A stretch of DNA of 41,987 nt from a virus: the IMG/VR virus record IMGVR_UViG_3300034220_000012, positions 1 to 41,987 of that record; one strand, given 5' to 3'. Below, in pieces: positions 4,592-6,129 of this stretch. A program made the translations under genes and the position numbers. Every line of letters begins with the position of its first letter. Position 1 is the first letter of the stretch. A model generated the notes under the pieces. It had not been told where the DNA came from, ran no database searches, and saw only the letters and a program-made list of their open reading frames with translations.

Positions 4592-4604
4592 GGACTATTC
4601 CGGG
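4592..4604 (+). repeat. Left copy of a 13-bp direct repeat flanking attP (candidate integrase arm site)
   Basis: GGACTATTCCGGG occurs here and again at 4812-4824, about 100 bp left and 65 bp right of the tRNA-derived core. Direct repeats flanking the core are the usual arrangement of tyrosine-recombinase arm sites. Binding is inferred. Confidence 0.5.
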
Positions 4605-4663
4605 ACTCCTGCGCACCGTTCCCGCCGCGTTCTGCCGACGATTGCCGCTCATTGGGATTGCGC

Positions 4664-4692
4664 TTGCCTCGCAGAACCGGCCTCCGCTAAGG
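4664..4692 (+). promoter_or_regulatory. Candidate phage-borne promoter reading into the tRNA-Pro half-gene
   Basis: TTGCCT (4664-4669) and CTAAGG (4687-4692) are separated by 17 bp. The predicted start is near 4700, a few bases before the first tRNA base at 4705. After integration this promoter would drive the rebuilt tRNA. The -10 is a weak match to the sigma-70 consensus, so this rests mainly on spacing and position. Confidence 0.4.
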
Positions 4693-4704
4693 GTAATGAG
4701 GCGT

Positions 4705-4745
4705 CGGGGAGTGGCGCAGTCCGGTAGCGCGCCTGCTTTGGGAGC
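4705..4745 (+). other. attP: attP core: 5' half of a tRNA-Pro(TGG) gene
   Basis: The 41 bases from CGGGGAGTGGCGCAG to TTTGGGAGC match the acceptor strand, D arm and anticodon loop (TTTGGGA, anticodon TGG) of a bacterial proline tRNA. The sequence then departs (CGAAGTGCT...), so the anticodon stem is not completed and no T arm or 3' end is present. Next to a tyrosine integrase this is the expected attP identity block. The strand exchange site probably lies in or near the anticodon loop. Confidence 0.8.
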
Positions 4746-4759
4746 CGAAGTGCTAGGGC

Positions 4760-5866
4760 TCATTTCCTCTTTTCCTTCAATGGGTTAAGTGCGACCACCG
4801 AACCAGCTACCGGACTATTCCGGGGTTCTGCGGCGATCAGCGCGTTGCGAATGTCCTCTTCATGCACATGGGCGTAGCGCGAGGTCGTCTCGATCCGGGT
4901 GTGCCCCAGCATCTTCTGCGCGACCTTGATGTTCGATCCGCGCGTGATCCGGCTGCCGGCGGTGTGGCGCAGATCGTGAAACCGGAAGTCCTCGATCCCG
5001 GCGGCAGTCAGGGCGCGCGACCAGCGGCGCTTCCAGCCCTCCTCGCTGAACGGATAGCGCTCGCCCTTCTGGCGCAGCGGCCGGTCGCCGCGCGGCGGGC
5101 TTGGGCGCTCGCACTCATAGGTGAACACCTGGGCCGCAACCTTGGGCCGGTTGGCGATGATCGCCACCATGCGCGGCGTGAGCGGGAACTTGTGCCAGAC
5201 GTTGCCCTTGGTCAGTACCTCCGCCCAGCCCTTCCGCAGATCGACCTTGCTCCACAGGAGCGTGATCACGGCACCCCGGCGCTGCCCGGATAGCAAGGCG
5301 AACTCGGCGACGGCGGCAAGGTCGGTGTCCAGATGCCCGAACAGCCGCGTCTCCTCTTCGGCGGACAACTCGCGGATGCGCTCTTGCGGTTCGCGCAGGA
5401 ACAGCTTGGTCCAGCCGATCACCGGCACCGAATAGGCGTCCTCCAGGTGACGCACGATCCGGCGCAGCACCTGCATTTCGCGGTTGACCGTCGCGGCCGA
5501 TACCAGCCGGTCGCTGTTGCGGGCCGTCTCGGCGCGGCGCTTGGCGATGTAGGCGTTGAGGTCCACGGCGGTCACGTCGACGATCATCTTGCCGGGGCCG
5601 AGCCGCTGCGCCAGCCGCAGAAGCTGGCCCTTCAAGGTGTTGCCGCGCTCGAACTGCCCCTTGTGATCCCAATAGAGGCTGCACGCGTCGTCTATCGTGA
5701 TCGACGGCTTGACCTTGGTCCCCAGCGCTACCTCGGTTCGCCGGCCACGCTCGTAGCGTTCCGCGTCCCGCTTGGCCTGGCACCCGGTAGAGCCGTGGAA
5801 CCGTTGCCCCCGGAACTGGAAGTCATAGTGCCAGAAGCGGCTGTTCCGGGGCTTGTAGATCGTCAT
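4760..5866 (-). CDS. int: Tyrosine-recombinase integrase
   Basis: Protein of 368 aa, typical for a phage tyrosine recombinase. After a small N-terminal arm-binding/SAM-like region (about 55-160), the catalytic domain carries Arg196 (SGQRRGAV), Lys220 (TKGNVWHKF), the HDLRHT box (His297, Arg300), His322 (MLGHTRIETT) and the nucleophile Tyr331 (SRYAHV). All core residues are intact. It catalyses integration and, with the excisionase, excision at the adjacent attP (4705-4745), only 15 bp beyond its stop. Its start ATG overlaps the stop of the excisionase gene (ATGA), so it is the last gene of the PL operon before attP. Confidence 0.95.
   Translation of the reverse strand: MTIYKPRNSRFWHYDFQFRGQRFHGSTGCQAKRDAERYERGRRTEVALGTKVKPSITIDDACSLYWDHKGQFERGNTLKGQLLRLAQRLGPGKMIVDVTAVDLNAYIAKRRAETARNSDRLVSAATVNREMQVLRRIVRHLEDAYSVPVIGWTKLFLREPQERIRELSAEEETRLFGHLDTDLAAVAEFALLSGQRRGAVITLLWSKVDLRKGWAEVLTKGNVWHKFPLTPRMVAIIANRPKVAAQVFTYECERPSPPRGDRPLRQKGERYPFSEEGWKRRWSRALTAAGIEDFRFHDLRHTAGSRITRGSNIKVAQKMLGHTRIETTSRYAHVHEEDIRNALIAAEPRNSPVAGSVVALNPLKEKRK
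4812..4824 (+). repeat. Right copy of the 13-bp direct repeat flanking attP
   Basis: GGACTATTCCGGG, identical to 4592-4604. This copy lies inside the 3' end of int, as arm sites of compact attP regions often do. It is a candidate integrase arm-binding site by position. Confidence 0.5.
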
Positions 5867-6129
5867 GGCTTGCCGAACCGCTGGGTGAACGGGACGATGG
5901 TCCCCGGCTTCGCACGACGACGCGGACGGGGCGGCGCCGGCTGGTCGACAGGTTCCTCCTGTCGGACTCGACTGTCAACGTATTCGTCCAGATCGTCGGC
6001 GCGATAGGCGATGCGGCGCGCGCTGATAGCGACGTAGCGGATCGCCCCCATGCGTTTCAGGTCGCGCAAGGTCCGCTCGCTGACATGGAGGCGGGCCGCA
6101 GCTTCCGCTGGGCGTAGCAGCGCGCTCAC
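5863..6129 (-). CDS. xis: MerR/AlpA-type HTH protein, probable excisionase
   Basis: An 88-aa protein beginning LLRPAEAAARLHVSERTLRDL, the classical HTH_17/excisionase motif (PxEAAxxLxVSxRTLR). A wing follows (RRIAYRADDLDEYV) and then a basic Pro/Arg tail. Such proteins bend DNA at att sites and turn integrase towards excision. It sits directly upstream of int with a 4-nt ATGA overlap, the usual place for xis. A transcriptional regulator role cannot be excluded. Confidence 0.8.
   Translation of the reverse strand: MSALLRPAEAAARLHVSERTLRDLKRMGAIRYVAISARRIAYRADDLDEYVDSRVRQEEPVDQPAPPRPRRRAKPGTIVPFTQRFGKP

Follow-up and report, generated by a model that had tools for sequence, protein, structure and literature searches.

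The attachment site (attP) in the window, that is the whole 41,987-nt stretch of DNA analysed, very probably brings the 5' half of a tRNA-Pro(TGG) gene together with a promoter of the type used by host tRNA genes, and integration would rebuild the tRNA gene behind phage DNA. We give this reading, which includes the assignment of the window to a temperate sphingomonad phage, a probability of about 0.9. The phage is probably P22-like, judged by its relative VSN-002. In textbook integration into tRNA genes the host promoter remains in charge. The features of the region are listed in Table 1.

Table 1. Features of the attP region and neighbouring genes in the window
Feature	Position	Strand	Details
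Left arm-type repeat	4592..4604	+	GGACTATTCCGGG; probable integrase arm site
Host-type tRNA promoter	4664..4692	+	TTGCCT 4664-4669, N17, CTAAGG 4687-4692
5' half of tRNA-Pro(TGG), attP/attB identity block	4705..4745	+	reads CGGGGAGTGGCGCAGTCCGGTAGCGCGCCTGCTTTGGGAGC; anticodon loop TTTGGGA
int, tyrosine recombinase, 368 aa	4760..5866	-	Pfam PF00589 1.3e-23; PHROG integrase 1.3e-54
Right arm-type repeat	4812..4824	+	GGACTATTCCGGG; within int 3' end
Probable excisionase (HTH_17)	5863..6129	-	PHROG excisionase 4.8e-9; PF12728

The original prediction described a tRNA-Pro(TGG) 5' half broken at the anticodon stem and called for a search of sphingomonad genomes for the 41-bp block. Such a gene was found: bases 1-41 of a complete sphingomonad tRNA-Pro(TGG) (L035, genome G038) are identical to the window block, with zero mismatches. 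The two sequences part (CGAAGTG in the window, AGGATGTCGCAGG in the host) once the first two bases of the 3' strand of the anticodon stem are passed. Neither ARAGORN nor Rfam identified a whole tRNA in the 41,987-nt window. The int stop codon lies about 15 nt from the tRNA core, on the opposite strand to the half tRNA. The integrase has the tyrosine recombinase domain expected of enzymes that target tRNA genes and, when aligned, shows the invariant R, K, H, R, H and Y residues. The excisionase gene and the start of int share 4 nt. The 42-kb window has exactly two copies of the 13-mer GGACTATTCCGGG, both of them within attP, and the pair looks like integrase arm sites; repeats spaced 222 bp are also present in VSN-002 and L016. 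They delimit an attP of about 235 bp (4592-4824) that includes both the promoter and the half tRNA. As arm sites flank the core on both sides, the site is a true attP rather than a junction.

Before integration the tRNA promoter of the phage aims at the int 3' end. No intrinsic terminator was found behind the half tRNA, on the way from the promoter to int, and the RNA fold of positions 4699-4800 is no better than that of shuffled sequences. In the prophage it is the host promoter, not that of the phage, that aims at the int 3' end. Judged from this arrangement, int may face convergent transcription in either form.

A promoter motif was trained on the sequences that precede 41 tRNA genes in genome G141, tRNA-Pro(TGG) being left out. 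A scan with the E. coli sigma-70 consensus had found no promoter; this consensus is not suited here and was replaced by the host-trained motif. In its own frame, the learned motif reads GCTTGCCA-N15-GCTAAGGGC. The candidate promoter predicted just before the half tRNA, whose CTAAGG box lies 12 nt upstream of tRNA base 1, scores 14.1 against a median of 17.1 for host tRNA genes. Random 100-mers of the window have a median of 2.4 and a 95th percentile of 8.0, and 0.3% of them reach 14.1. It is the fourth-best site for this motif on both strands of the 42 kb.

The boxes are conserved among relatives. A host-type promoter precedes the tRNA in 16 of 17 elements, the exception being L170; 11 of the 16 were found via integrase or tRNA sequence and 5 came from a pattern scan that itself required CTTGC and CTARGG. 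Scores range from 12.2 to 21.4; when the upstream sequences are shuffled, on average 0.16 out of 16 attain a score of 12. The second box ends 9-10 nt before the tRNA in all 16. Identity among these elements is 97% and 91% in the two boxes and 35-36% in the spacer (35%), the leader and the upstream DNA, a contrast which is partly due to the choice of the best-scoring site and for which the shuffled sequences serve as control.

In two relatives, L162 and L168 (integrases 53-54% identical), attP holds the 3' half of tRNA-Pro(TGG) instead. They exhibit no host-type promoter facing int: their scores of 7.6 and 3.5 compare with a median of 5.7 and a 95th percentile of 11.7 for random 330-mers. The presence of the promoter therefore follows the half that is carried, a pattern which, on sequence grounds, we read as probable selection for tRNA transcription. 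This bears on the idea that TTG-N17-CTAAGG is mainly an antisense promoter opposing int rather than a tRNA promoter. Its direction towards the int 3' end, together with the missing terminator, would suit such a role. However, int is equally opposable in L162 and L168, where the promoter is absent, and the fixed distance of 9-10 nt to tRNA base 1 and the resemblance to the promoter type of host tRNA genes also argue against it. An antisense function as the main role is thus improbable.

The promoter might also be a neutral leftover of host DNA captured along with the 5' half. More distant integrases (39-46% identical) adjoin the 5' half of tRNA-Val(TAC), and in these elements the promoter motif is weaker and its position less fixed than in the tRNA-Pro elements. 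In two of the lysogens, G074 (L142, L148) and G048 (L154, L155), the promoter region is near-identical at attL and attR, which suggests that promoter and 5' half were captured together from a host. Capture alone, however, would not explain the tRNA-Pro elements: boxes kept amid diverged DNA are not expected of a neutral remnant, and a mere leftover is very improbable there, even more so than an antisense role. A promoter retained for the tRNA is the reading that we prefer.

The exchange itself is documented by VSN-002 (MZ127829), a phage isolated from Lake Biwa (PMC9302152), whose integrase is 55% identical to that of the window and whose attP carries the same kind of half tRNA and promoter. 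A VSN-002 prophage is present in G474 at C1:194726-236497 (L251, L252), with 99.9% identity over the two junction stretches compared. The distance from core to core, 41,771 bp, is exactly the length of the VSN-002 genome. The block CGGGGAGTGGCGCAGCCCGGTAGCGCGCTTGCTTTGGGAGCA is common to attP, attL and attR. At attL, the int-distal end, the tRNA is complete and preceded by phage sequence; at attR a half tRNA lies beside int with host sequence upstream. Since the free and integrated forms are compared, the exchange of promoter and 5' half can be followed within a single phage.

The closest lysogen is Sphingomonas sp. Leaf10, with an integrase 67% identical to that of the window. It contains two direct copies of the identity block, 47.3 kb apart. 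The int-distal copy belongs to a complete tRNA-Pro(TGG), and the element DNA upstream of it includes CTTGC...GCTAAGGG. The int-proximal copy is preceded by host DNA (tRNA-Met and a promoter-like site) and consists of a half tRNA followed by int. As in VSN-002/G474, the identity block thus lies in a tRNA gene that is complete at one junction, and int stays open in both prophages. The same layout is found in G141, G091 (where the two junctions sit on separate contigs), G281 and G007, and in a 2.5-kb remnant in G302. Seven tRNA-Pro lysogens (these five, G474 and Leaf10) and five tRNA-Val(TAC) lysogens read at both ends (G038, G074, G201, G062 and G048) therefore share a reversed organization, in which the 5' half comes with the element and the 5' fragment that it displaces is located upstream of the complete tRNA.

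These junctions come from relatives, the nearest having the 67% identical integrase, and the search found no prophage of the window's own phage. In these prophages the swap of promoter and 5' half put forward in the original prediction can be read at both junctions; no junction was located elsewhere and no rebuilt tRNA kept the host promoter. A conventional integration, in which the phage carries the 3' half while the 5' half in the window is only a junction by-product or a captured tRNA fragment, would agree with the 3' half in the close relatives L162 and L168 and with the Islander collection (3760 islands with a 3' and 159 of 3919, about 4%, with a 5' tDNA fragment, PMC4383910, in line with the predominance of 3' ends that the original prediction took as known), but it is the least probable of all, being refuted in relatives by junctions that place the complete tRNA behind phage DNA (VSN-002/G474, Leaf10 and others) and opposed in the window by the arm sites on either side of the core, which make it an attP.

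A duplication and an unrelated element were set apart from these lysogens. G011 was rejected, its two full tRNA-Pro copies with identical flanks corresponding to a duplication. In G212 an unrelated 5.4-kb element with a P4-type integrase (L135, 854-6345) occupies tRNA-Pro(TGG) in the 5'-half orientation; it was left out of the count, given its integrase type and a promoter score of only 3.5 by the host motif.

The proposed mechanism starts with recombination, by the integrase, between attP and the anticodon region of the host tRNA-Pro(TGG), as the junction sequences of relatives show; the crossover probably takes place in the anticodon loop of 7 bp. In these relatives the tRNA is restored at the int-distal end, where the phage promoter and 5' half are joined to the host 3' half, and the int-proximal end leaves the host promoter side with a half tRNA aimed at the int 3' end. 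In the lysogen the rebuilt tRNA would be transcribed from the phage promoter. A viable lysogen would need this promoter because tRNA-Pro is usually single copy and in many hosts follows tRNA-Met and lacks its own promoter.

The host genomes are consistent with such a need. A tRNA-Pro(TGG) match is present in 238 of 299 family genomes, and nearly all of these 238 have one copy. The CCA codon is expected to be read by tRNA-Pro(TGG) only, and the gene is presumably essential in the host. It begins 8-37 nt after tRNA-Met in 48 of the 299 genomes, and empty sites (G074, G062 and G301) exhibit tRNA-Met followed by a complete tRNA-Pro. In the tandem hosts that were scored, no promoter was found between the two genes (scores of about 4-5). 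Integration in a tandem host parts tRNA-Pro from the tRNA-Met promoter, so that the phage promoter should be needed. In Leaf10 tRNA-Pro had its own promoter, as it probably had in G474, and in such hosts the phage merely replaces one promoter by another.

Since integration severs the only tRNA-Pro(TGG) from its own promoter or from that of the tRNA-Met operon, we lean slightly towards a lysogeny in which the attP promoter is required for viability and the prophage controls the transcription of an essential tRNA. If this is true, the promoter faces int before integration and drives the tRNA after it. A direct prediction is that loss of a 6-bp box would make lysogeny fail.

The organization is widespread among related integrases. 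A supported clade (SH-aLRT 98) includes 49 relatives from viral contigs and genomes with a readable attP or junction; 47 of these sites carry the 5' half and 2 the 3' half. Beyond this clade, 5' and 3' halves are mixed. The still more distant element G229/L033 (integrase 33% identical) is conventional, with a complete tRNA-Pro(GGG) behind the host promoter. In L162 (2620-2690) and L168 (2620-2690) the carried half has switched within the clade, the core being inverted relative to int. The attP region of L170 past int (about 2530-2950) includes a 5' half and an arm site with no recognisable tRNA promoter; it is the sole exception found among the tRNA-Pro elements.

A study by Zhao and Williams in 2002 (J Bacteriol 184:859) reportedly described elements that reverse the usual tRNA orientation. 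A passage of PMC6563490 cites it for the rarity of 5'-half elements. Like the window, the reversed elements of that study and of Islander give the 5' portion of the tRNA, displace the 5' end and use a site centred on the anticodon. However they form a minority among islands, while the 5' half prevails in the integrase clade of the window, whose attP sites in addition include a conserved host-type tRNA promoter. According to a review, there are very few exceptions to the rule that a rebuilt bacterial tRNA gene keeps its original promoter, and pTN3-like archaeal integrases are named as the 5'-half case (PMC8371274). The suicidal integrase of pTN3 from Thermococcales has an attP that shares with attB a 41-bp 5' half of tRNA-Leu (Cossu 2017, PMC5495485). 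As in the window clade, the rebuilt tRNA is parted from its original promoter. pTN3 is, however, an archaeal plasmid whose attP lies inside int, so that integration disrupts int and leaves the tRNA under the control of the integrase promoter, whereas in the window clade int stays whole, with the window core outside the gene, and a separate tRNA-type promoter is carried.

Mycobacteriophages with tRNA-dependent lysogeny bring a complete tRNA gene and its promoter (Guerrero-Bustamante and Hatfull 2024, PMC10865867). They share with the window phage the obligation to supply a means of keeping an essential host tRNA working after integration. Their core is about 10 bp and the host gene is not rebuilt, whereas the window phage brings the promoter and the 5' half alone, without any complete tRNA, and in its relatives the host gene is rebuilt. 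Conventional anticodon-loop integrases (G229/L033, L162 and L168) also combine a tyrosine integrase, a tRNA target and a crossover near the anticodon. Unlike the window, they carry the 3' half and leave the host promoter in charge.

Carrying the 5' half is therefore already known, from Zhao and Williams 2002 and from pTN3. What is new is a phage clade with the 5' half as the rule and a conserved host-type tRNA promoter in attP; an earlier description of a phage-borne bacterial tRNA promoter is possible, for example in Zhao and Williams 2002 or Williams 2002. On sequence grounds, a large and easily sampled phage clade appears to seize the transcription of a single-copy host tRNA. Natural relatives with the other half and without the promoter exist, so that the long-standing question of why the 3' half is nearly always the one carried can be tested directly. 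The price of the 5' half would be the need to bring, and to maintain, a functional tRNA promoter. These properties are also relevant to the use of such integrases as genetic tools.

The VSN-002 integrase (L253, MZ127829, 14717-15835) is annotated as a telomere resolvase. Both its sequence and its location at attP mark it as an ordinary tyrosine integrase. G474 is possibly BSN-002, the isolation strain of VSN-002, in which case the phage may have come out of its own indicator host.
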